From assembly GCA_016195085.1 (NCBI GenBank), contig JACQAG010000036.1, positions 1 to 45,423 on the forward strand: 45,423 bases of DNA. The letters run 5' to 3'. This DNA comes from Pseudomonadota bacterium. Lineage in GTDB: Bacteria; Pseudomonadota; Alphaproteobacteria; SHVZ01. The notes beneath the pieces were generated by a model. The model was not told the origin of the DNA. It worked only from the letters and a program-made list of their open reading frames with translations, and ran no database searches. Shown here in pieces: positions 191-45,423 of this stretch (position 1 is the stretch's first letter; each line of letters begins with the position of its first letter). The position numbers were made by a program, and so were the translations under genes.

Positions 191-541
191 ATGATCGAGT
201 TCGCCGACACCGAACGCTGGCGCCGTCTTTACCCCGCTCTCGGACCCAAGAACGAGCGCGACCATCAGGTGCTGCAGGCGTTCATGGCCGAGTTCGGTCC
301 CATGCAGGAGGACATGGAAATCCACGGCGTCGACTATGATCGCCGGGTGGTGCTGCTCCGGGTCGCCCGTCGGCGGCCGGATGGGCCGCCGGTCGAAATG
401 TATACCTTCGCCGAATGCAATACCGACGGCTGGATCACGGCGAAGAAGCTCTGGCTCGAGCCCGAGGCGCGCCGGCGCGCCGATCTGAGCCGGGTCTTGA
501 TGGCGACCTGGCCGGCACCGCCGGAGACGACCATCTATTAA
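191..541 (+). CDS. Hypothetical protein
   Basis: A 116-residue soluble protein that I do not recognise. It has no signal peptide, no membrane segment and no familiar motif. The N-terminal half is acidic and the centre is rich in arginine (RRVVLLRVARRRPDG). The start at 191 has no clear Shine-Dalgarno sequence in front of it, only a C-rich run, so translation could begin at an internal ATG such as 284. The ArfA-like ORF follows 51 bases downstream on the same strand, so the two may share a transcript. I favour this reading because the opposite-strand frames across it give low-complexity, arginine/proline-rich translations typical of shadows in GC-rich DNA. Confidence 0.6.
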   Translation: MIEFADTERWRRLYPALGPKNERDHQVLQAFMAEFGPMQEDMEIHGVDYDRRVVLLRVARRRPDGPPVEMYTFAECNTDGWITAKKLWLEPEARRRADLSRVLMATWPAPPETTIY

Positions 542-592
542 CCATTGCGGGAATGCCGGGTCGAGCCGGGCGAGCAAGGACGGGGCTAACCA

Positions 593-748
593 ATGGCACG
601 TGTGAAGAACCCGGCGGCAAAGGCGGTGCGCTCGGAGCAATTTCGGCCGCGCCGGGTGAAGGCCCGCAAAGGCATCAAGGCCTATCGCCGACGCTCCAAG
701 CACCCCAGCGGGGTCAAAGCGGACGATCCTGACCCCGATTCGCGGTGA
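593..748 (+). CDS. ArfA-like alternative ribosome-rescue protein (small ORF)
   Basis: A 51-residue, strongly basic protein. The central segment, FRPRRVKARKGIKAYRRR at about residues 17-34, resembles the conserved core of ArfA (a leucine/phenylalanine-arginine patch followed by K-x-x-K-G-x-x-x-Y-x-R-K). In Escherichia coli ArfA enters ribosomes stalled on mRNAs lacking a stop codon and recruits RF2 to release the peptide, backing up tmRNA. A weak AAGGA lies about 13 bases before the ATG. The product is shorter than E. coli ArfA (72 residues) and ends soon after the core with an acidic tail (DDPDPD). E. coli arfA mRNA is itself made as a truncated message; I cannot see whether that applies here. 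The assignment rests on a short motif, so it is tentative. The alternative is an unrelated small basic RNA-binding protein. Confidence 0.55.
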   Translation: MARVKNPAAKAVRSEQFRPRRVKARKGIKAYRRRSKHPSGVKADDPDPDSR

Positions 749-1139
749 GTCGCTCCGCTGCCACAACTGCTTGATCGGGAAGAATTTCCCCCCGCCGCAA
801 CTTTCGGCTGGACGGGCCTTGCGGCAATCGCCATCATCGGCGTCCACGAAATGAGTGGCCGGCGGAGGCGCATGCGGCGCGTCCGATCGCCCATTCAAGC
901 AAGCTGTGGTGTGCGCCGTTTTCCTCGGAAGGTTCCGAAAGCTGCAGCGCCGCTCGTCCTGCGTCCTCTCCATGGACGCCGCGGCGGCTCAGAGGCCTCT
1001 GATCCTTGCTTCCCGGTCAAGCGAGCGCGGGTACCCTTTTGGGAATCCGCCATCTCTGCCGAAAGCCCCTTCGCCACAGCATCACCAACCCGCGGGGGGC
1101 CCTGCCCCATGAGCGGCGGCCAGGCAAGGGACTAAGGCA
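749..1139 (+). other. 391-base non-coding gap, leader of the RRM gene
   Basis: No convincing gene is visible in either strand. The open frames that cross it are arginine/proline-rich and look like chance frames in GC-rich DNA. The last part carries the ribosome binding site of the RRM gene (CAAGGGACTAAGGCA before the ATG at 1140). A long leader would be compatible with cold-inducible control, as is common for bacterial RRM proteins, but I see no defined cold-box motif. Confidence 0.5.
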
Positions 1140-1481
1140 ATGCAAGTGAAGTTATTCGTCGGCAATCTCCCCTACTCGGTCAATTCCGAGGAGTTGAAGG
1201 AGATGTTCACACCATTCGGCAGCGTGGTGTCGGCGAAGGTCGTCAGCGACCGCGAGACCGGCCGCAGCCGCGGCTTCGGCTTCGTTGAGATGGACAGCGA
1301 GGATGCCTGCGAGCGGGCGATCCGCGAGCTCAACGGCACCGATGTGGGCGGACGGCCGATGACCGTGCGCGCCGCCGAGGATCGCGGCGACATGCGCGGA
1401 CCGCGCCGCGGCGGTGGCGGTGGCGGTGGCGGCTTCGATCGCGGGCCTCGCGGCGGCGGGGGCGGCGGCGGCCGGTTCTAA
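1140..1481 (+). CDS. Glycine-rich RRM RNA-binding protein
   Basis: A 113-residue protein with one RNA recognition motif at residues 1-80. RNP2 is LFVGNL at residues 5-10 and RNP1 is RGFGFVEM at about residues 44-51, with the aromatic residues that stack on RNA. A glycine/arginine-rich tail (residues 87-113, ending GGGGGGGRF) follows. Bacterial RRM proteins with such tails bind RNA and are often cold-induced in cyanobacteria and proteobacteria. The start is supported by a purine-rich AAGGGACTAAGG upstream. It is probably monocistronic: a GC-rich hairpin follows the stop codon and the next gene is on the other strand. The tail's glycine runs are encoded by simple GGC repeats and could vary in length between strains. 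Confidence 0.93.
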   Translation: MQVKLFVGNLPYSVNSEELKEMFTPFGSVVSAKVVSDRETGRSRGFGFVEMDSEDACERAIRELNGTDVGGRPMTVRAAEDRGDMRGPRRGGGGGGGGFDRGPRGGGGGGGRF

Positions 1482-1504
1482 CCCGCTGGGCTGACGCCTC
1501 CATT

Positions 1505-1532
1505 CCGGCCGGCGGCGTTCGCCGCCGGGCCG
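1505..1532 (+). terminator. GC-rich hairpin after the RRM gene
   Basis: A stable inverted repeat (GGCGGCG next to CGCCGCC, with outer GGCC/GGCC pairs and one bulge) lies 24 bases after the stop codon. There is no U-tract after it, so it may stabilise the 3' end or act together with Rho rather than terminate on its own. Confidence 0.4.
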
Positions 1533-1601
1533 AACGAGCTATGATCCGGCGCCGCGGAGCCTTGCTCCCGGCGCCGTTGCTTTTGCGGTGAAGCGAAAAA
1601 G

Positions 1602-2027
1602 CTAGAGCTTGCTGACGAAGCCGACCATATGGCCGGCGGCGAACAGCACGATGGCCCCCACCAGCAGCAAGACGCAGACCAGCATCACGACCTTGGTCAA
1701 GGACGAGCCTTGCTTGACCACCGGCTTTCGGGGGCCGCTCCCCTTGAAATCGACCTCGGCCTTCTTCTCCGGCTTCGCCGCCTGCTTGTCTTCCTTGGGT
1801 GGCGGCGCCGCGCGCTCGGTCACGGGCTTGGAGGTGTCGTAGATCACGATCTCCTTGCTCGAATTGGTCTTGGGGTCAAACATGTCCTTGACGACCTTGA
1901 CCCCTTCGAAGCGCTTCTCGCCGTGCAGAGACTTGGCGACCTCGATCGCAGCCTCGCGGTCTGGGTAGGTGGAATCGATCATCCACGTACCACCCTTCAG
2001 GGTATGGACCTCGAACAGTGTCGCCAT
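1602..2027 (-). CDS. Conserved hypothetical protein with C-terminal membrane anchor
   Basis: A 141-residue protein with three visible parts. Residues 1-68 form an alpha/beta-looking domain beginning MATLFEVHTLKGGTW and containing MIDSTYPDREAAI. Residues about 70-108 are a lysine/proline-rich linker. Residues about 113-138 are a single hydrophobic segment (VVMLVCVLLLVGAIVLFAAG) near the C-terminus. It should be a tail-anchored inner-membrane protein with its N-terminal domain in the cytoplasm. I do not recognise a named domain. The ATG at 2027 was chosen over one 45 bases upstream because the extra residues are low-complexity and the domain begins at MATLF. It faces the RRM gene tail to tail and is not obviously in an operon. 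Confidence 0.8.
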   Translation of the reverse strand: MATLFEVHTLKGGTWMIDSTYPDREAAIEVAKSLHGEKRFEGVKVVKDMFDPKTNSSKEIVIYDTSKPVTERAAPPPKEDKQAAKPEKKAEVDFKGSGPRKPVVKQGSSLTKVVMLVCVLLLVGAIVLFAAGHMVGFVSKL

Positions 2028-2151
2028 AGTCGTACTCGTTCCCGTTTTGTGCGGAGTATTATCCCCAGGCACCTAACGGATTAGTCGATAATCCAAGGAA
2101 AATCCACTCCCGCGGCCATAGGCCGGTATGTCGAGGGCCTCCGGACCGGCC

Positions 2152-3000
2152 TCAGCCGGGCCAGGCGCGCAGCTCCTGGCGCTGGCTGCCGAGGCCCGCG
2201 ATGCCGAGCGTGACCACGTCGCCGGGCTTTAGAAACACCGGCGGTTTCTTGCCGGAACCGACCCCGGGGGGCGTGCCGGTCGAAATCACGTCGCCCGGAT
2301 TCAAGGTCATGAATCGGCTGACATAGCTCACCAGATGGGCGCAGCCGAAGATCATGGTCTTGGTATTGCCGTTCTGGAAGCGGGTGCCGTTGACCTCGAG
2401 CCACATGTCGAGATTCTGCGGATCCTTCACTTCGTCCGTGGTCACGAGCCAGGGACCGAGCGGCCCGAAGGTGTCGCAGCCCTTGCCCTTATCCCAGGTG
2501 CCGCCGCGCTCGAGCTGGTATTCGCGCTCCGAGACGTCGTTCGCCACGCAATAACCGGCGACGTAGTCGAAGGCCTTCTCCTCGCTCACATACTGCGCCT
2601 TGGTGCCGATGATGATGGCGAGCTCGACCTCCCAATCGGTCTTCTTCGAATCCTTGGGGATGATGACGGGATCGTTGGGACCCGAGAGCGCGGTATCGGC
2701 CTTGATGAAGATGATCGGCTCTTTGGGCACCGGCATGCCGGCCTCGGCGGCGTGATCGGAATAGTTGAGGCCGATGCAGACGAACTTGCCGATCTGACCG
2801 ACCGGGGGCCCGAGGCGCGGCGAGCCGGAGACCTCGGGAAGCGATTCCGGCTTCAAGCTGCGAAGCTTCGCCAGACCTGCGGATCCCAGCACATCGCCCT
2901 TGATGTCGGCGATGGCGCCGGACAGGTCGCGGATGCGTCCATTGCCGTCGACGAGGCCCGGCTTCTCCCGTCCGGGCTGGCCAAAGCGCAGCAATTTCAT
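2152..3000 (-). CDS. Fumarylacetoacetate hydrolase (FAH) family protein
   Basis: A 282-residue protein of the FAH superfamily, which hydrolyses, decarboxylates or isomerises beta-diketo or 2-oxo acids using a divalent metal. The N-terminal lid domain covers residues 1-65 and the catalytic domain follows. The metal ligands expected for the family are present: E124 and E126 in WEVELAIIIG and D155 in VANDVSERE. The signature GKFVCIGLNYSDHA at residues 71-84 and the C-terminal STGTPPGVG are typical of the family. Length fits the 280-residue bacterial enzymes annotated as 2-hydroxyhepta-2,4-diene-1,7-dioate isomerase or ureidoglycolate-lyase-like proteins; the substrate cannot be told from sequence. 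It is the last gene of a leftward series, 90 bases after the cyclic-nucleotide-binding gene. Confidence 0.93.
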   Translation of the reverse strand: MKLLRFGQPGREKPGLVDGNGRIRDLSGAIADIKGDVLGSAGLAKLRSLKPESLPEVSGSPRLGPPVGQIGKFVCIGLNYSDHAAEAGMPVPKEPIIFIKADTALSGPNDPVIIPKDSKKTDWEVELAIIIGTKAQYVSEEKAFDYVAGYCVANDVSEREYQLERGGTWDKGKGCDTFGPLGPWLVTTDEVKDPQNLDMWLEVNGTRFQNGNTKTMIFGCAHLVSYVSRFMTLNPGDVISTGTPPGVGSGKKPPVFLKPGDVVTLGIAGLGSQRQELRAWPG

Positions 3001-3090
3001 GTTCGTTTCCTCAAGGCAAGCTGTTGGAAGTGCGCGACCATACAGGCGAGATCAAGGGCTAGACAAGCGCCGAGCCGGTACCGGCTGGGC

Positions 3091-3462
3091 CTAAACCTCA
3101 TCCCCCGGCCGGTGCGTCGTCACAAGCGAGCGGACGTTGCGCACGAGAACCCGAAGGAGTCCGCGCAGGAACGGATCGGCGGCGGCGAGCTTCTCCTGAA
3201 ATACCAGGTCGGGAATGACGATGAGCTCAGTGGTCTCCAGCGCGGCCGCGCTCGCGACCCGGGACGAGCGGTCGATGAGCGCCATCTCGCCGAAGATGCC
3301 GCCTGCCGCGATCGTGCCAAGCACCGTCTTGCGTCCGTCGATTTCCCGGAAGATCTCGACCATGCCGGATTCCACGATGTAGGCATGGTGGCCGGCATCT
3401 CCCTCGGTGAAAATGCGGCCGCCTTTCGGGAAGGCCGTGCGGCTGAAATACTCGAAGCTCAT
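3091..3462 (-). CDS. Stand-alone cyclic nucleotide-binding domain protein
   Basis: A 123-residue protein that is essentially one cNMP-binding beta-barrel of the Crp/Fnr sensor type, without a DNA-binding or catalytic domain. The phosphate-binding cassette reads FGEMALIDRSSRVASA, with the glycine-glutamate pair and the arginine that contacts the cyclic phosphate. GDAGHHAYIVESGMVEIF near residues 22-39 is the usual first half of the fold. It overlaps the upstream SAM hydroxide adenosyltransferase gene by 4 bases, so the two are translationally coupled. A free-standing sensor domain suggests it works through a protein partner. Whether it binds cAMP or cGMP is not known. Confidence 0.9.
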   Translation of the reverse strand: MSFEYFSRTAFPKGGRIFTEGDAGHHAYIVESGMVEIFREIDGRKTVLGTIAAGGIFGEMALIDRSSRVASAAALETTELIVIPDLVFQEKLAAADPFLRGLLRVLVRNVRSLVTTHRPGDEV

Positions 3463-4235
3463 CCTCGCCTCTTCGCGTTGCCGCTCCGCCCCGCGCGCGG
3501 CGCCGCGCGCATGTGCACGCGCACGCGATCACCGATCCGCAGCCCGTATATCCGCGCGGCGCGCGCCTGGTTGGCGGCGATCTCGACGAGCCCGTTGGAA
3601 TTCTCGTACCAGAAGCCGCTGCCGGGGTCGACCGATCCGAAGGTGCGGGCGCGCTTGAGCTCATGGCCATTGACCGCGAGCACCGCGCCCGCGTCCAGCA
3701 TGTCCGCCCGGAGCCCGGTCATGCCATTGCCGTAGCGGTCGATATAGACGATCTCGGCCAAGTCGTCGGGCCAGCGCTGGGCCTTGGGATCGGGGCGGCG
3801 GAGCGTCTCGCCCGCCGGCAGCTCGCCCAGCGCCAGGCGCGCTGCGACCGGGGCGAAGAGATCGCGCCCATGAAAGCTGCAGGAGAGCCGCAGCGGGCGC
3901 CAGGAAATCGCCATCGCCCGGCGCCGTCGCGAGCGCCGCCACAGGAGCTCGACCAGCCCATTGTCGGGCCCGACGAACCAGCGCCCATCGAGCTCAGCCG
4001 CGAGCGCTGGGCGGGCTCCGCCGACCCCGGGGTCGACCACCGCCAAGAGCACGGTACCCGCCGGAAACGCGCTTGCATGAGCGGCCAGGAGATAGGCCGA
4101 GCGCTTGGCATCGAAGGCCGGCGCATCGGCAAAGAGATCGATGACCGGCACGCGCGGCGCCAGGCGGAGCAGCACCGCTTTCATCTGCCCGGTGTAGGGC
4201 CCCTCCATGCCGAAATCGGTGAACAGCACGATCAT
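3459..4235 (-). CDS. SAM hydroxide adenosyltransferase (DUF62 family)
   Basis: A 258-residue member of the family that contains SAM hydroxide adenosyltransferases and the actinobacterial chlorinase/fluorinase. Archaeal and bacterial members split S-adenosylmethionine to adenosine and methionine with water as nucleophile. The Asp-Arg-His triad of the hydrolytic subgroup is present as D68 and R75 in VVDPGVGGAR and H122 in FHGRDLFAP. The N-terminal TDFG at residues 6-9 and the C-terminal domain with the aromatic/asparagine motif (FWYENSNG, about residues 213-220) complete the family pattern. Halogenase activity is not expected because this triad marks the hydroxide users. It starts 25 bases after the epimerase gene and overlaps the cNMP-binding gene by 4 bases. 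Confidence 0.9.
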   Translation of the reverse strand: MIVLFTDFGMEGPYTGQMKAVLLRLAPRVPVIDLFADAPAFDAKRSAYLLAAHASAFPAGTVLLAVVDPGVGGARPALAAELDGRWFVGPDNGLVELLWRRSRRRRAMAISWRPLRLSCSFHGRDLFAPVAARLALGELPAGETLRRPDPKAQRWPDDLAEIVYIDRYGNGMTGLRADMLDAGAVLAVNGHELKRARTFGSVDPGSGFWYENSNGLVEIAANQARAARIYGLRIGDRVRVHMRAAPRAGRSGNAKRRG

Positions 4236-4260
4236 GCACGGAACCGAGAGCTCGAAAGGC

Positions 4261-5205
4261 TCAGCCGGTGGCGGCCAGGCTCGGGCGCCAGGCGAAGGTT
4301 TGCCTGAGCCCGTCGGCGAGCTGCGTCTCGGCGCTGAGCCCGAGCTCGCGGCGCGCCAGCGCCGGATCGCCCAAGGAGTGCCTGAGGTCGCCCGGCCGCG
4401 ACGGTACCGAGATGATCTCGACCGCGCCGCCGGCGATCGTCATCAACGTCGTCGCCAGCTCGCGGATCGTGGTCCCGCGTCCGCTGCAGACATTGTAGAC
4501 GCCGGGCTCGCTCGGCCGCCGCGCCATTGCGGCCAAGAGAAAGCGCACGACGTCGCCGACATAGATGAAATCGCGGATCTGGCTGCCGTCACCATGGATG
4601 GTGATGGCGCGGCCCTGGCGAATGCGATCGGCGAAGATGGAGATGACGCCGGAATAGGGCGAGCTCGGATCCTGCCGCGGTCCATAGACATTGAAGAAGC
4701 GCAGGCCCGTGGTCGGCACGCCATGCACCTTGTGGGCGACATAGGCGTGCAGCTCGCTCGCGCGCTTGTCGGCGCCATAGGCGCTCTCCGGCCGCATCGA
4801 CGCCGATTCCAGGATGGCCCCGGCCGCCCCTTCGCCATAGGTCGCCGCCGAGGAGGCGTAGACGACGGGGATCGGCCGTCCGGCACCGGCGCGCCTGGCG
4901 GCATCGAAGACGGCGATCGATCCCGTCGCATTCACCCGGTGCGTTCCGAGCCAGTCCTCGACCGAGCGCTCAACCGAGGCGACCGCGGCCAAGTGGAAGC
5001 AGCCCTCGCAGCCGGCCATCGCGGCGGCGAGCAGGGCGGGATCGGCGACGTCGCCCACCACCAGCTCGGCGGCTCCCGGCAGATTGTCCCGTCTGCCCGT
5101 CGACAAATCGTCGAGCACGCGCACGCCATCGCCCCGCGCCGTCAGCGCGTCGAGGAGATGCGAGCCGATGAAGCCGGCTCCGCCGGTGACCAAATAGCGC
5201 GCCAC
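4261..5205 (-). CDS. NAD-dependent epimerase/dehydratase (UDP-glucose 4-epimerase-like)
   Basis: A 314-residue extended SDR. The nucleotide-binding GGAGFIG follows the start directly (residues 7-13). Catalytic residues are visible in VVYASSAATYG (serine) and ESAYGADKRASE (Y-x3-K). FFNVYGPRQDP and the C-terminal RPGDLRHSLGD are typical of UDP-glucose 4-epimerase and related nucleotide-sugar enzymes. It probably supplies sugars for surface polysaccharide. A GTG start at 5205 was chosen because GGAGGG lies 4 bases upstream and places the Rossmann motif at the N-terminus. Longer readings run into antisense of the aldehyde dehydrogenase remnant. It heads the leftward run that continues with the SAM hydroxide adenosyltransferase gene. 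Confidence 0.92.
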   Translation of the reverse strand: MARYLVTGGAGFIGSHLLDALTARGDGVRVLDDLSTGRRDNLPGAAELVVGDVADPALLAAAMAGCEGCFHLAAVASVERSVEDWLGTHRVNATGSIAVFDAARRAGAGRPIPVVYASSAATYGEGAAGAILESASMRPESAYGADKRASELHAYVAHKVHGVPTTGLRFFNVYGPRQDPSSPYSGVISIFADRIRQGRAITIHGDGSQIRDFIYVGDVVRFLLAAMARRPSEPGVYNVCSGRGTTIRELATTLMTIAGGAVEIISVPSRPGDLRHSLGDPALARRELGLSAETQLADGLRQTFAWRPSLAATG

Positions 5206-5374
5206 ACGCCCTCCAGGATCGGACGCCTGCAACCTATCGCATTCGCCGGTTTCGGGGAAACTCTCGGTTGGTGTGCCGGTTCCGATGCGTGCCGGCATCG
5301 CCGGCGCGCTTCGGAACGGCCGACCCGCGACGGCCGTGACACCTTCGCGGGTCCTTCCGCGGGAGAAACAATCC

Positions 5375-5575
5375 ATGTCGATGGGCGAGGTCTTGATCGG
5401 CGGCAAGTGGCGAGAGGCCGCCTCGGGCGCCAGCTTGCCGGCGATCAATCCGAGCGACGGCGGCGGCGAGCGGCCCTTCGGCGGCATGAAGAAGAGCGGC
5501 TTCGGCCGCGAGACGGGTTTCGAGGCGCTCCACGGCTTCACCACGCTGAAGACGGTGGCGATCGAGCACGGCTGA
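5375..5575 (+). pseudogene. Aldehyde dehydrogenase remnant, internal in-frame deletion
   Basis: Translation gives 66 residues that join the two ends of an NAD-dependent aldehyde dehydrogenase. Residues 1-29 (MSMGEVLIGGKWREAASG, then INPSDG) match the usual N-terminus. Residues 31-66 (ERPFGGMKKSGFGRETG, then KTVAIEHG) match the usual C-terminus. Roughly 400 residues in between, with the NAD site, the catalytic Cys and the general-base Glu, are missing. The join lies at a GGC run near 5461-5470, which suggests slipped-strand or microhomology deletion. The reading frame and the upstream ribosome binding site (GGGAGAAACAATCC) survive. The fragment cannot be an active dehydrogenase. It sits 30 bases before an SDR gene in the same direction, so it probably once formed an operon with it. 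An assembly collapse is a possible alternative. Confidence 0.85.
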
Positions 5576-40439: not shown

Positions 40440-40653
40440 GGGGGAGGAGGTGGCGAAAGCGGCCTTTCTGTCCCTCTCCCTTTGGGGGCTTTGCACATAA
40501 TGACCATGAATAACCCAATTTCCTGTGCAGCACGCAATTCTGCACAAAAACCCTCTCTGGGTAACATCTAGCATGGGAGTGATTGATACCCCATTCCGTT
40601 GGCGGGCAAACTACAGTGCGAAAGGCTTTCTAGCTCGCATCATGGAGTTTCCG
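40440..40653. other. Boundary between high-GC core and lower-GC island
   Basis: Composition changes here from strongly GC-rich to nearly balanced. The stretch holds an inverted repeat, TGTGCAG (40524-40530) with CTGCACA (40540-40546), followed by an A-run. No tRNA, integrase or repeated attachment sequence is visible. The reading frame of the protease gene is open back to 40525, but the upstream part lacks a ribosome binding site. Confidence 0.5.
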
Positions 40654-41535
40654 ATGCCACGGATACCGAATGATTTTCTGGAACTGGTGTTCTTTCTATA
40701 TCCGTCTAAGGAAGCAGCCAAGAAGGGGGAGGCATTTGGTGGAAGCGGCTTCTTTACAAGTATCCCATCAAATACCGACGCTAACCTGAGCCATGTCTAT
40801 GCGGTGACCAACAGGCACCTGATCGAAGATGGTCATACGGTTATACGGATCAACACCAATGCCGGCGGACGGAGCTACGTTGAAACTCAGAAGGCAGATT
40901 GGAAATTCGACCAGGACGATGATCTGTGCGTGATACCAGTTGCCATCGATGAGCATCATACCTATCGAGCGCTTTCACGGAGCAGCTATCTCGACCAGAC
41001 CACAATTGATTTGTGGAACATTGGTCCTGGTGATGACGTATTCATGATCGGACGCTTCATCAACCGAGATGGAGCACCACAAAATTCCCCATCTATCCGT
41101 TTCGGCAATATCTCAATCATGCACAAGGAAAAAGTGAAGCATCAGCGGCTTGGTCATTGGCAGGAGAATATCTCCGTTGAGATGAGGTCCATTGGCGGTT
41201 ACAGCGGCTCACCCGTGTTTGTAACTGTTCCTCCGTTTTCGGTGCGACCCGATAAGAATGAGATCTCCCAGGAATCACGTATATGGCTTCTGGGTGTGGA
41301 TTGGGGGCATGTACGAACGCGCGAGCCAGTGATGTTCAAGGGCAGTGAGACACATCATCCCGAAGGCTTGTATGTCGAATACAACACCGGCATGGCCAAT
41401 GTGGTGCCTGCATGGCGATTGACGAAATTGCTTGATATACCGCAGTTCTCATTCGGTAGAGATCAATGGGACCAGGACGAGGCAGAGAGACGCAAATATC
41501 TTGCACCTGCTGACGTATGCGGCACCACACAATGA
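40654..41535 (+). CDS. Trypsin-like serine peptidase
   Basis: A 293-residue chymotrypsin-fold protease. The catalytic triad can be placed as H55 (AVTNRHLIE), D90 (QDDDLCVIPV) and S184 (IGGYSGSPVFV). The substrate-binding GGSGFF at residues 29-34 leads the fold. There is no signal peptide or PDZ domain, so it is a cytosolic stand-alone protease. The start at 40654 is favoured because GGAG lies 6 bases upstream; ATG codons at 40642 and 40573 would give longer forms. Base composition is lower in GC than the preceding core genes. It converges on the membrane coiled-coil gene. Cytosolic trypsin-like proteins of this kind are frequent in accessory and defence-rich regions (general knowledge); the target is unknown. 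Confidence 0.9.
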   Translation: MPRIPNDFLELVFFLYPSKEAAKKGEAFGGSGFFTSIPSNTDANLSHVYAVTNRHLIEDGHTVIRINTNAGGRSYVETQKADWKFDQDDDLCVIPVAIDEHHTYRALSRSSYLDQTTIDLWNIGPGDDVFMIGRFINRDGAPQNSPSIRFGNISIMHKEKVKHQRLGHWQENISVEMRSIGGYSGSPVFVTVPPFSVRPDKNEISQESRIWLLGVDWGHVRTREPVMFKGSETHHPEGLYVEYNTGMANVVPAWRLTKLLDIPQFSFGRDQWDQDEAERRKYLAPADVCGTTQ

Positions 41536-41628
41536 AGTTTGATCCTCGCTCACAAAAACACTCCAATCACCCGAAGCCTGGCAGAGGACGCGACCTGCCA
41601 TGGGCTGGTTAAGCATCAGTGGGGATCT

Positions 41629-42387
41629 TTACGGCTTTGCTCCGATCAAGACGCGAAGCTTGGAATTCTCACCACCTGGTCCATTATACGAATTAGATGG
41701 CTGCTCACCGATTGGGTATGGTTCCCATGGCACTGCATCCAAACCAACTGTATGGAAAGCTGTTACAAGCGTGGATACGGCTGCTTGGATATTGGGAGAT
41801 GCATCTGTCTCACAACGCACCAAAATTCCACCAAAAACTGCTCCGGCGCCAAATGGAGTTAGAATTCTCACAGTCGCACCGGCTGCTTTTAAGGCATTAG
41901 CAATTTCGTGGCTTAATGGTGCTGCATCAGGACTAAGCCCCTCATACACAACTAGGTCGATGCCAATTCCAGCTAAGGCGGTTAATTGGCTGGCCAATTG
42001 GTCTGTGCGTGCTGGCCCGAGAGATCGTGGTGCCAGTTTGATTTCTAGTTTAAGCCGCGCAAGACGCTCAGATTCGGCTTTTTCGTTTGCTTCGGCTGCA
42101 TGCAACTCCGCTTGGGCAATAGCTGCCCGCGCCAGTTCCGCTTCCTTATTCAAAATGGCCGTTTGCAATACCGCGTGGCTCGCGTCGAGTTGTGCCGAGG
42201 CGAGATCGCGTTTCAAAAAATCTTCCTTTACGTTGCCCATCCAAACAACAAGGACCGTAACAACGGCAACAGTCGCAAGGCTAATGATGAGCGCAATATT
42301 TGCAACATCATATATCCAGATTGCCCAGGCTTCTGATGGCCACATTTTTATATCCCCATGGCTCCCACTCGGTTCGATTGTGGTCAT
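41629..42387 (-). CDS. Membrane-anchored coiled-coil protein with C-terminal domain of unknown function
   Basis: A 252-residue protein. One membrane helix lies at about residues 29-50 (ANIALIISLATVAVVTVLVVW). It is followed by a coiled coil at about 55-118 rich in Ala/Glu/Lys (LNKEAELARAAIAQAELHAA). A compact alpha/beta domain occupies about 120-252 (PRSLGPARTDQLASQLTALA, then IGIDLVVYEG, HEIANALKAAGATVRILTPF) and ends in VLIGAKP. The same order (anchor, coiled coil, domain ending near VG-x-KP) occurs in uncharacterised bacterial proteins, from memory and unverified. The start may be 42387 or the ATG at 42345, which has GGGG 8 bases upstream. The gene is in the low-GC island and converges on the protease gene. 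Confidence 0.85.
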   Translation of the reverse strand: MTTIEPSGSHGDIKMWPSEAWAIWIYDVANIALIISLATVAVVTVLVVWMGNVKEDFLKRDLASAQLDASHAVLQTAILNKEAELARAAIAQAELHAAEANEKAESERLARLKLEIKLAPRSLGPARTDQLASQLTALAGIGIDLVVYEGLSPDAAPLSHEIANALKAAGATVRILTPFGAGAVFGGILVRCETDASPNIQAAVSTLVTAFHTVGLDAVPWEPYPIGEQPSNSYNGPGGENSKLRVLIGAKP

Positions 42388-42485
42388 TTTGTTGTCCAGC
42401 GGTTTTGTTTTTTGGAAATTGATTGTGAGAATGTGGGGGCGAAATAAAGGTGGTGGTTAGCGAGTGCTACCCCCATCAGCCCATT

Positions 42486-43724
42486 CTAGGCTGCTTTGGC
42501 CCTCGTCTCGAAATTCAGATCCAATCCGAATTCGTAGACGGTCTGGATGAGGCAGCAGATGTTATGGCAGAGGATCTTGCAGAGAACCTCATTGGCCATC
42601 GCTGTCTCTGTCTTGCTCCGAACGTCATCCCGGAACTTGCTCTTGATCATCATGACCGTGCTCTCGACATTCGAGCGCTGGTGATAGTGGGAAAGGAATT
42701 CAGACCGATTCAAATGGAAAAAATGGAATGCCTTCTCCCACAATCCACCAGCCTTGCCGGTGTGGTTGGATTTGAAAGGGATGTATGCGGTTGCTCCATG
42801 GGTAGCGATGGCCTTGTGGTTGTTGACGCTCCCATACGCTTTGTCAGCCATCACCTCACGGACATCGAAATTCTTCGCGGTCGTATCCAGCAAGCTAGGC
42901 AAGACCGGAGAGTCCTGGGCATCACGCTCATGGATCTCGATTGCCGTGACGATGTTGGTGTTGACGCCACACATCATGTGCGCCTTGACCCAGTCATGCT
43001 CGCGCTTGTCCCACTTCCGGTACTTCTTATCGAACCAGGGAACGAAGCGATTGGTGGTGAAGCCAGTCGAGTCCACGGCGAAGTTGGTTTCCAGAGCCTT
43101 CAACGGCAATGCGCTGGTCTGGATCAGGTTGAGGAGGATCGGCGTCAGATCGGGCTTCTCTAGATAGTTGAAAATCGAATTGAAGTGGGGGACCTTGGTC
43201 ATGTATCCGCGCCCATAGGCATCGCGGAGATCGGACATGAAGCGCCGTCCAGATACGGTCGAGTAGACCTTGAATGTCGTGGCGAACACCATGTCGGCCA
43301 ATGAGAGCCTGGGGCGTCCCATCTGCTGCTCCGGTTCCTCGATGCCCTGGCACAGATCGAACAAGAGGGATTGGAATTCGTGCTTCTCATTCGTCTGGGC
43401 AGCGTTGTAGGCAGCCCAATCCTGTGGATAGGTCTTTCTGGTCGCCTTGGTGACCGTGACCCTCTCTGTGATGGTCGTTGAACCATCGGCATGGGTCTCA
43501 CGCTGGATCACGTATTGGACCGCGTAGATATGCTTGCACCTGAGTCCGGTCTCTTCATGGTCAGGGCATGTGCAATGGGGGTTCATCGGATCTGGGCAGA
43601 CGGTATAGCGCCGGTTGCCTGATTGTGATGGGACCAGCCAGATCGATCCCTTCTGGGTGAGCTTGCACATGGCGGCAATTGCCATGCCCAGTTGCTCTCT
43701 CGGTTGTCCTTGCCAGTCGTGCAT
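42486..43724 (-). CDS. DDE transposase with N-terminal SWIM zinc finger
   Basis: A 412-residue transposase. A SWIM-type zinc finger (C51, C53, C63 and H65 in HCTCPDHEETGLRCKHIYAV) precedes an RNase H-like DDE domain of the IS4/IS5 superfamily. Catalytic residues are D218 (FAVDSTGF), D294 (VMADKAYGS) and E354 (QRSNVESTVMM). The C-terminal ALCKILCHN-like block (NEVLCKILCHNICCLIQTVY) is typical of these transposases. The ATG at 43724 is set by AAAGGTG 7 bases upstream. The frame is intact. No convincing terminal inverted repeats or target duplication were found, so the ends of the element are undefined. An 8-base match (CCCATCAG at 42472 and its complement at 43829) is too short to rely on. Confidence 0.92.
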   Translation of the reverse strand: MHDWQGQPREQLGMAIAAMCKLTQKGSIWLVPSQSGNRRYTVCPDPMNPHCTCPDHEETGLRCKHIYAVQYVIQRETHADGSTTITERVTVTKATRKTYPQDWAAYNAAQTNEKHEFQSLLFDLCQGIEEPEQQMGRPRLSLADMVFATTFKVYSTVSGRRFMSDLRDAYGRGYMTKVPHFNSIFNYLEKPDLTPILLNLIQTSALPLKALETNFAVDSTGFTTNRFVPWFDKKYRKWDKREHDWVKAHMMCGVNTNIVTAIEIHERDAQDSPVLPSLLDTTAKNFDVREVMADKAYGSVNNHKAIATHGATAYIPFKSNHTGKAGGLWEKAFHFFHLNRSEFLSHYHQRSNVESTVMMIKSKFRDDVRSKTETAMANEVLCKILCHNICCLIQTVYEFGLDLNFETRAKAA

Positions 43725-43751
43725 TTTGATCACCTTTCTGTATACCAATAT

Positions 43752-43780
43752 TATATACTACAGAGAGATTGAATTGACAA
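43752..43780 (-). promoter_or_regulatory. Promoter of the transposase gene
   Basis: On the leftward strand TTGTCA (43775-43780) and TATATA (43752-43757) are separated by 17 bases, close to the sigma-70 consensus. The promoter ends 27 bases before the transposase start codon in a strongly AT-rich intergenic region. Confidence 0.6.
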
Positions 43781-43831
43781 GAACAATAGTATATAGTGTC
43801 CTTATATAATTTGGAGGGATGAGGTTCTCTG

Positions 43832-44032
43832 ATGGGCGATCCTATTGAGCAAGTGATTGGAATGGTTATGCTTCCCGGCTGTAGGTGCCGGTGCGGGCAT
43901 GAATGGCTATCCAGGGATAAGGGCGAGAAGCCTAGGGTATGCCCTAAGTGCAAGACGCCCAATTGGGACCGGCCGAAGCAGTTCAGCCGACCAGATCTGG
44001 TAGATAAATATGAGAAGGAAGGAAATTTATAA
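43832..44032 (+). CDS. Small zinc-ribbon protein
   Basis: A 66-residue protein with four paired cysteines: CRC at about residues 17-21 (GCRCRCGHEW) and CPKC at about 37-40 (PRVCPKCKTPNWDRP), the layout of a zinc ribbon. The C-terminus is charged (FSRPDLVDKYEKEGNL). Proteins with 'RC-x-C-GHEW...CPKCK' are common small ribbons without assigned function in accessory DNA. GAGG lies 7 bases before the ATG. It diverges from the transposase. The next small ORF starts just after it. Confidence 0.8.
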   Translation: MGDPIEQVIGMVMLPGCRCRCGHEWLSRDKGEKPRVCPKCKTPNWDRPKQFSRPDLVDKYEKEGNL

Positions 44033-44051
44033 GATAATGAAGGATATAAAA

Positions 44052-44351
44052 ATGAACTCTATTGAAGAAGAATCTCATATGTTATCAGATGAAGAGATTG
44101 AAAGTCTAGATCTTTCTAAGTTTACACTAGAATATCTTTCCCTTGGCATGCCAGGATGGCCCTCGGCTGATATATCTATTTCTTATCATTTACCGCCAAC
44201 AGCCGATCCAAAATTGCTGTTATCCCGTTTGAAAAAACAGCAATTAGCTGGTTTGAAACCCGCGTTACCTCCTGTCGAATTGTTACATTCGGATCCTCGT
44301 GTTCCAGTACCCCAACAGCGGCGTCGCAAGAAGCACATCGCAAAATCTTAA
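44052..44351 (+). CDS. Hypothetical small protein overlapping an opposite-strand gene
   Basis: A 99-residue open frame. The N-terminal half is acidic (MNSIEEESHMLSDEEIESLD, then LSKFTLEYLSLGMPGWPSAD) and looks protein-like. The C-terminal half lies over the antisense of the zinc-ribbon gene at 44176-44433 and is basic (QQRRRKKHIAKS). AAGGA is placed 7 bases before the ATG at 44052, which argues for translation. Both strands cannot easily be coding here, so I rate it low. If real, it ends inside its neighbour. Confidence 0.38.
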   Translation: MNSIEEESHMLSDEEIESLDLSKFTLEYLSLGMPGWPSADISISYHLPPTADPKLLLSRLKKQQLAGLKPALPPVELLHSDPRVPVPQQRRRKKHIAKS

Positions 44352-44433
44352 TTGGGAATTTTGCTCCAGCCACTTGTTCGGTGCTGATCGCGAACCCTGT
44401 TTCTTTGCAATACGGGCATTTTGGCTTTGCCAT
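44176..44433 (-). CDS. Small zinc-ribbon protein
   Basis: An 85-residue protein with a classical two-knuckle zinc ribbon: CPYC at residues 6-9 and CASC at about 33-36 (LRCASCDAAVGVLEHED). The rest is predicted helical (VTRVSNQLIAVFSNGITAIL). Similar ribbons are found as hypothetical proteins in many bacteria. The cysteine pattern and length make this strand the better reading where it overlaps the plus-strand frame. The start at 44433 has weak upstream purines (GAAAG). Confidence 0.8.
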   Translation of the reverse strand: MAKPKCPYCKETGFAISTEQVAGAKFPIKILRCASCDAAVGVLEHEDPNVTIRQEVTRVSNQLIAVFSNGITAILDRLLAVNDKK

Positions 44434-44588
44434 GGTTTTCTTTCCTAGATTGTTTACCTATTAGGACTTCTCCCACATTATTCCATTAGGTTTTCAATTC
44501 TGCCCTACTGTAGAAAACTGCCATAGCCCTTCAAATCCTACTCCCTTATCGTAGATGACGAGCGTCACGGAATCGACCGGAGGTGGCC

Positions 44589-45302
44589 ATGGGCCAGAGA
44601 TGGTTGGTTGCTGGCATTGTTGTGCTGGGCGTTCTGATGGTGCCGTCAGCACATGCTCAGCAAAATCCCTTTGGGGCGCTTCTCCAAAACCTGCAGAAGC
44701 AATTGGAGGAAGGGCAACCTCAACAGGGAGCACCTAATAAACCTGCGGAAGCGCGGCCTGGCTCACAGACAAATGATTCTTGTGAGGCATCATATGAGGC
44801 GCGCCAGTACAAGGCCGCCGTCTCCTGTTGGCGTAATCTGGCCGATAACGGAGATGCGCGTGCGCAAACACGGCTTGGTGAAAGCTACTTTGAAGAAAAG
44901 GGAGTCTCATTACCGAGCGAGTGGCAAGAGCATGCTGAGGCGGTTAAATGGTTTAGGAAAGCCGCAGACCAGGGATACGCAAGAGCACAAGGCGATCTCG
45001 GTTTAATGCTGAGACATGGGAAAGGGACGGCGCGGGATTATCCGCAAGCATTGATGTGGTTCCAAAAGGCTGCGGACCAGGGATACGCAAGCGCCCAATA
45101 TAACTTAGGACAGATGTACGAAGATGGTTTGGGAGTTCAAAAAGATGAAGATACTGCTTTGCAATGGTATAAAAAAGCAGCCGACCAAGGATATAAAAAT
45201 GCAGTTGTAGCGTTTCAGGAATTGCAACATAAACAGCAGAAGGCTCAGCAGGAAAAACAAAAGACGGCATCAAATGTGAAAGTCGCCATAGAAACAAAGT
45301 AA
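44589..45302 (+). CDS. Secreted Sel1-repeat protein
   Basis: A 237-residue exported protein. The signal peptide MGQRWLVAGIVVLGVLMVPS plus AHA is probably cut before QQN. A Gln/Pro-rich spacer (about residues 24-60) precedes three to four Sel1-like repeats at about residues 70-215: AAVSCWRNLADNGDARAQTR, AVKWFRKAADQGYARAQGDL, ALMWFQKAADQGYASAQYNL and ALQWYKKAADQGYKNAVVAF. Sel1 repeats are helical scaffolds for protein binding in the envelope or in host interaction. The C-terminus is a charged Gln/Lys helix. GGAGG 5 bases before the ATG at 44589 decides the start over the GTG at 44583. Confidence 0.93.
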   Translation: MGQRWLVAGIVVLGVLMVPSAHAQQNPFGALLQNLQKQLEEGQPQQGAPNKPAEARPGSQTNDSCEASYEARQYKAAVSCWRNLADNGDARAQTRLGESYFEEKGVSLPSEWQEHAEAVKWFRKAADQGYARAQGDLGLMLRHGKGTARDYPQALMWFQKAADQGYASAQYNLGQMYEDGLGVQKDEDTALQWYKKAADQGYKNAVVAFQELQHKQQKAQQEKQKTASNVKVAIETK

Positions 45303-45375
45303 GCGGTGTTTTGGCGACGGGTAGATGAAGCTTGCGCAGCCAGCATCATCGCACCGTGCGCTTCCGGTGCTGGGA

Positions 45376-45423
45376 TCAGGGCGGTTTTCCGCAACACTTC
45401 TTGAACTTCTTTCCCGAGCCGCA
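45376..45423 (-). CDS. C-terminal end of a SEC-C motif protein (partial)
   Basis: Only the last 15 codons are inside the window. They encode CGSGKKFKKCCGKPP, the second half of the SEC-C zinc-binding motif (C-x-C-x8-C-C/H). The motif occurs at the end of SecA, UPF0149/YecA proteins and many small proteins. The rest of the gene lies to the right. The identity beyond the motif is unknown. Confidence 0.75.
   Translation of the reverse strand, partial: CGSGKKFKKCCGKPP

Follow-up and report, generated by a model that had tools for sequence, protein, structure and literature searches.

The stretch analysed here, hereafter the window, comprises a whole contig of 45423 bp (JACQAG010000036.1) from a draft alphaproteobacterial assembly of 95 contigs (GCA_016195085.1). 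Its tail carries a gene for a trypsin-like serine protease, the main subject of this report, followed by genes for a coiled-coil protein with one transmembrane (TM) segment, a DDE transposase, two small zinc-ribbon-like proteins with CxxC motifs and a Sel1-repeat protein. From ~40.5 kb onward, the guanine-plus-cytosine (GC) fraction falls from 0.65–0.70 to 0.46–0.54. The GC fraction at third codon positions (GC3) is 0.42–0.57 across the protease (0.54), coiled-coil (0.42), zinc-ribbon and Sel1 (0.47) genes, intermediate in the transposase gene (0.73), and 0.82–0.87 in the preceding core genes, encoding a GNAT protein, a patatin, COQ9 and a deformylase. The low-GC genes span 40573–45302. The first-pass annotation of this DNA had proposed an accessory region set off by a sharp change in composition and codon use from ~40.5 kb. 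The drop in both GC and GC3 supports a foreign, accessory composition, and all of the genes that it named were recovered in the Pfam scan and the list of open reading frames (ORFs).

The trypsin-like protease and its relatives in IS1595-family transposons

The protease gene (40573..41535, plus strand) starts at either 40573 or 40654: the frame is open to 40525 with an in-frame ATG at 40573, and the ATG at 40654 has a well-spaced GGAG. The product matches the Pfam family Trypsin_2 (1.5e-7). Residues H55, D90 and S184 (counted from the 40654 start) do not vary among the aligned homologues, and the motif G182-x-S-G surrounds the serine. The AlphaFold model (pLDDT 71, pTM 0.74) aligns with the protease domains of Deg/HtrA proteins at Z 16–19 over ~190–200 residues, and in the structure search 995 of the 996 aligned chains scored Z >= 8; the sequence-level PDB search returned nothing better than E 0.026. 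Taken together, the model and the alignment place the protein among enzymes with the chymotrypsin-like double beta-barrel fold and an H-D-S triad with a GxSG motif. This fold and these residues are shared with the S1C proteases of the HtrA/Deg group (Deg1, DegQ, DegS, MamO), from which the window protease differs by the lack of a signal peptide and of a PDZ domain and by an identity of only 10–22%. Since no PDZ domain was detected with Pfam, and no N-terminal signal or TM segment in the sequence, the protein has an HtrA-like fold without being an HtrA protein and is most likely cytosolic, as the first-pass annotation had also suggested. There it would work conditionally, as an intracellular protease. 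The match of the protein to the PADLOC defence-candidate model PDC-S45 is weak and distant (5e-11, 40 bits, residues 66–266).

A profile search built from a three-row alignment yielded six protease loci, whereas a single-protein search of the genome contigs yielded none and a seven-row alignment was too diverse. Five homologues are cargo genes of 2.0–2.2-kb transposons of the IS1595 family, four of them from Alphaproteobacteria (L004, L005, L007 and L009) and one, with a frame-broken protease gene, from a Rubrobacter metagenome-assembled genome (L031). The layout of these elements consists of an inverted repeat, the protease gene convergent with the transposase gene, a second inverted repeat and an exact 8-bp target-site duplication. 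In all five elements the 3' end of the protease gene overlaps that of the transposase by ~37–52 bp. A 24-bp inverted repeat of the form CGCGNNTATCCCNTNNCNNCAAGT encloses the two genes; it has diverged in L031 and, at one end, in L005. The exact 8-bp duplications are TTATTTTT, ACAAAATC, GTGAAATC, CGAGGGTC and TATGGGAA for L004, L005, L007, L009 and L031, respectively, read with a shift of 1–2 bases allowed in the start of the inverted repeats. The transposases of L004, L005, L007, L009 and a further locus, L006, score 178–228 bits with the NCBIfam IS1595 model, far above its cut-off, and the L031 transposase is 46% identical to that of L005. At L006, a truncated protease gene is convergent with a transposase of another IS1595 subgroup, and neither inverted repeats nor a target-site duplication were found there. 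Searches of viral contigs and phages returned no relatives.

An element of the IS1595 family typically duplicates 8 bp at its target and has one transposase gene (PMC8101967), and passenger-carrying members (tIS), such as tISCpe8 and MTnSag1, are known (PMC5704250). Like the latter, the protease relatives lie between terminal inverted repeats of ~24 bp together with an IS1595 transposase and are flanked by 8-bp duplications. The published tIS examples named in that review are mobilizable elements, tISCpe8 carrying lincomycin resistance (PMC5704250), whereas the passenger here is an intracellular protease. We found no paper that describes a protease as IS1595 cargo; the passenger list of the 2009 paper defining the family was outside this comparison, so the novelty of this type of cargo is uncertain.

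Unlike tIS elements, the window copy itself is accompanied by neither a transposase of this family nor inverted repeats. There is no IS1595 transposase in the window, the IS1595-like transposases of this genome being confined to two other contigs (C6 and C43), and a scan around the protease gene with a matrix of the inverted repeat gave nothing above noise. On these grounds, a remnant of an IS1595 element around the gene was rejected. The closest match to the window protease is the transposon-borne L027 protein (46–47% identity; 46% in the comparison with L004/L027 and 39% with L005). In the tree, the window protein falls in a clade (support 94/93) with the transposon-borne L027, which lies on the same contig as L004, with L031, and with two free copies, L028 and L029. 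Copies of both kinds, from four phyla, are intermixed in this tree. The window protease also lacks the C-terminal HREDF-type tail that sits at the transposase overlap in L004, L005, L007 and L009. Judged from these sequences, the simplest reading is that the window protease represents an orphaned cargo gene of a rare mobile family. The ancestral element would have consisted of an inverted repeat, a single protease cargo gene running convergently into and overlapping the 3' end of the transposase gene, a second inverted repeat and the 8-bp duplication. The window copy would descend from such an element through loss of the transposase half.

Several points weigh against this scenario. Not all copies are transposon-borne: L028, L029, L032 and L008 are free, and the window gene could thus belong to a lineage that was never mobilised. 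The protease tree does not separate gain from loss, and the missing tail is no proof of deletion, since the free L028 and L029 copies are also tail-less. As for a defence use of the enzyme, the window protein is a distant match to the PDC-S45 model, and most of the matches to this model recovered from 385 genomes have ordinary chromosomal surroundings, as read from the neighbouring ORFs.

The convergent overlap with the transposase, present in five out of five elements, would also fit a protease that serves the transposon itself, controlling either the level of the transposase or the use of targets, and that is retained through this overlap. We regard such a service role as improbable: the cargo of related transposases is unrelated, or they have none of the protease type, and free copies of the protease persist without a transposase.

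The coiled-coil protein as a neighbour of the protease

The next gene (41629..42387, minus strand) encodes a protein with one TM segment, a coiled coil and a small C-terminal alpha/beta domain. It had no match above threshold in Pfam, NCBIfam, PADLOC or PHROG. The model consists of an N-terminal hydrophobic helix, a 98-residue helix and the alpha/beta domain, and its comparison with the PDB gave no reliable match, the best hit (Z 7.6) being to V-ATPase stalk helices and meaning little. No relatives were recovered in the plasmid search.

The first-pass annotation correctly described this gene as convergent with the protease gene and proposed that the pair at 40654–42387 be tested as a defence or stress module. 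In such a module, the anchored coiled-coil protein would sense damage or infection and the protease would be the effector. The two genes are adjacent, convergent and similarly low in GC, and the weak PDC-S45 match of the protease is compatible with such a role. However, in the survey of 289 genomes of the class, protease homologues occur in six and coiled-coil homologues in two, the window's genome being the only one with both, and no protease locus inspected outside this genome has the coiled-coil protein beside it. Moreover, each of the five intact elements has the IS1595 transposase gene in the convergent position. The lack of co-occurrence among the 289 genomes, an outcome that the first-pass annotation had itself named as refuting, leaves the two-gene module with hardly any probability and was the ground for rejecting it, which removes a false lead; the coiled-coil gene is a neighbour of the protease gene, not its partner.

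The remainder of the tail and its flanks

The third gene of the tail (42486..43748, minus strand) encodes a DDE transposase with an N-terminal SWIM finger (DDE_Tnp_1 5e-20, SWIM 1.7e-4). Its nearest NCBIfam models are those of IS5, the score with IS5_2 being 112 bits at a cut-off of 140, and it remains below the cut-off for all insertion sequence (IS) models. The gene is present in a single copy in the genome and no terminal repeats were found for it; it may belong to an IS group not yet described, or be an element in decay. Downstream lie two small zinc-ribbon-like ORFs, one on the plus strand (43832..44032) with the motif CxCGHEW...CPKC and no family match above cut-off, and one on the minus strand (44176..44433) with two CxxC motifs and a match to PHROG 1934 (2.5e-5). 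The latter overlaps a plus-strand ORF at 44010–44351, and is the likelier gene of the two because of its PHROG match.

The last gene (44583..45302, plus strand) encodes an exported Sel1-repeat protein (Sel1 8e-29). Its stop codon lies inside a repeat that occupies the final 125 bp of the window (45299..45423), so the gene has been cut short. These 125 bp are 100% identical to the start of another contig of the assembly (C17, positions 17–141), and the identity begins sharply at GTAAGCGG in both contigs after differing flanks, which indicates that both contigs run into the terminus of a repeated mobile element. The minus strand of the visible portion encodes a C-terminus of the SEC-C/UPF0149 type and weakly matches a UPF0149 gene from a plasmid of Thioclava. 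The terminal GTAAGCGG resembles what we take to be the ends of IS66-family elements, and the element is probably IS66-like, a candidate label given to an element of which 125 bp are seen. In C17, this same 125-bp end forms the outer limit of a defence-like set (325–5386) adjoining ligA that includes genes for a DNA methylase, a ParB-like protein, an SNF2 helicase and a NO VEIN C-terminal protein.

To the left of the tail, five same-family genomes keep the run of COQ9, peptide deformylase, rpsU and GNAT genes, and the stretches retrieved from them contain neither the patatin gene nor the low-GC genes. In the two genomes followed further (G001 and G004), the run continues with a gene that, on reading the sequences, we assign to a peptidyl-prolyl isomerase (PPIase), and then with putative nar genes. 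The PPIase of these relatives has no close counterpart in the window's genome, the only matches being partial ones of 30–32% identity elsewhere, and the two sides of the site could therefore not be joined. No clean empty site was demonstrable in the same-family comparison, the far side being lost at the contig end. As far as sequence comparison goes, the site is variable between genera.

The first-pass annotation had also remarked that no core gene follows the low-GC region. This proved to be an assembly artefact: the contig stops inside a repeat, so the absence of a following core gene carries no biological meaning. The break in GC and GC3, the transposase, the contig-end repeat that truncates the Sel1 gene and the loss of synteny with same-family genomes after the GNAT gene, together with the transposon-borne homologues of the protease, lead us to consider it probable that the tail is mobile-element debris accumulated at an unstable chromosomal site, with the protease as an orphaned cargo copy, and not one functional island. 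The coiled-coil protein, the transposase, the zinc ribbons and the Sel1 protein would be separate arrivals. A single integrated genomic island with defined ends would account for the low GC that runs unbroken from ~40.5 kb to the contig end, but it is unlikely, given that the window-wide scan detected no tRNA, that there are no convincing direct-repeat ends and no integrase among the ORFs scanned, and that the transposons encountered are of two unrelated types and the right end is unassembled. Promoter and terminator scans performed no better than on shuffled sequence.

Possible roles of the protease and other cargo of IS1595 elements

Trypsin-like proteases are known to act in antiviral immunity (PMC12799240), and PDC-S45 is named in the single paper found, as a software hit in prophages (PMC12429752). 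The window protease matches the profile of this candidate system over ~200 residues, and its relatives reach 8.5e-19; however, a bona fide PDC-S45 member scores 353 bits, compared with the 40 bits of the window protein. In being a cytosolic trypsin-like enzyme, the window protease also resembles the bacterial proteases that accompany MBL nucleases in Hachiman, AVAST and related systems (PMC12799240). Those proteases form fusions with a defence enzyme and have an MBL-type nuclease as partner; both are missing here. Three relatives adjoin defence genes, namely an AbiV gene (PF18728 3.6e-22), a TIR gene and a plasmid-borne set of methylase, helicase and GIY-YIG genes. Together with the CapP-like M78 peptidase carried by related IS1595 elements (see below), these matches and contexts, and the published precedent, make it possible, though less likely than not, that the protease acts on its own against phages, as an effector or a regulator, and is mobilised both by IS1595 transposons and as a free gene. 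Against such a role, PDC-S45 is itself a mere candidate and most matches to its model lie away from recognisable defence genes. At a guess, the likeliest use of the window protease would be in accessory defence, with a target being cleaved or activated by it when a phage or plasmid attacks.

Two of the defence-associated arrangements deserve description in their own right. At L038 (1498–2977) and L093 (5051–6530), an AbiV (HEPN) gene begins 1 bp downstream of the protease relative on the same strand, forming a possible protease–AbiV operon. On plasmid pAt2 of Agrobacterium pusense (L039, 5659–7773), a serine protease relative lies upstream of a TIR-domain gene, also on the same strand.

Beyond the protease set, nine of 18 further loci with transposases of the same subgroup have inverted repeats, an 8-bp duplication and sizeable antisense ORFs (L044, L045, L049, L050, L051, L054, L055, L056 and L060). 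The search for target-site duplications tolerated shifts of up to 14 bases, which makes single cases outside the protease set less secure, and at L044 the antisense ORF within the element measures 79 amino acids, so its status as cargo is doubtful. The cargo of L049 consists of an M78 (IrrE-like) peptidase (PF06114 6e-18; PADLOC capP 1e-26) and a membrane protein, and that of L056 of a DUF7946 protein. Among the alphaproteobacterial loci L044–L061, L052 also appears by sequence to carry a CapP-like M78 peptidase with a membrane protein, and single-TM proteins occur as convergent cargo in L045, L050 and L060. A small antisense ORF of ~80–140 amino acids, overlapping the 3' end of the transposase gene and containing a motif like LSLEEAR..G.I..F..E, was observed in L044, L050, L059 and L061. 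A bolder and rather improbable extension is that this IS1595 subgroup serves to shuttle small intracellular proteins with regulatory or defence functions, notably CapP-like metallopeptidases and trypsin-like proteases of the cytosol, each encoded convergently to the transposase. The protease would then be a one-gene immune or transposon-control module, of which the window holds a stranded copy.

The low-GC tail is in itself ordinary, and the useful result is the cargo link of the protease, which explains the presence of a lone protease gene amid the mobile-element debris of the window. If this link holds widely, IS1595-type transposons would constitute a simple vehicle moving single intracellular protease genes between phyla, and such elements would be a tractable place to seek small defence or regulatory modules.

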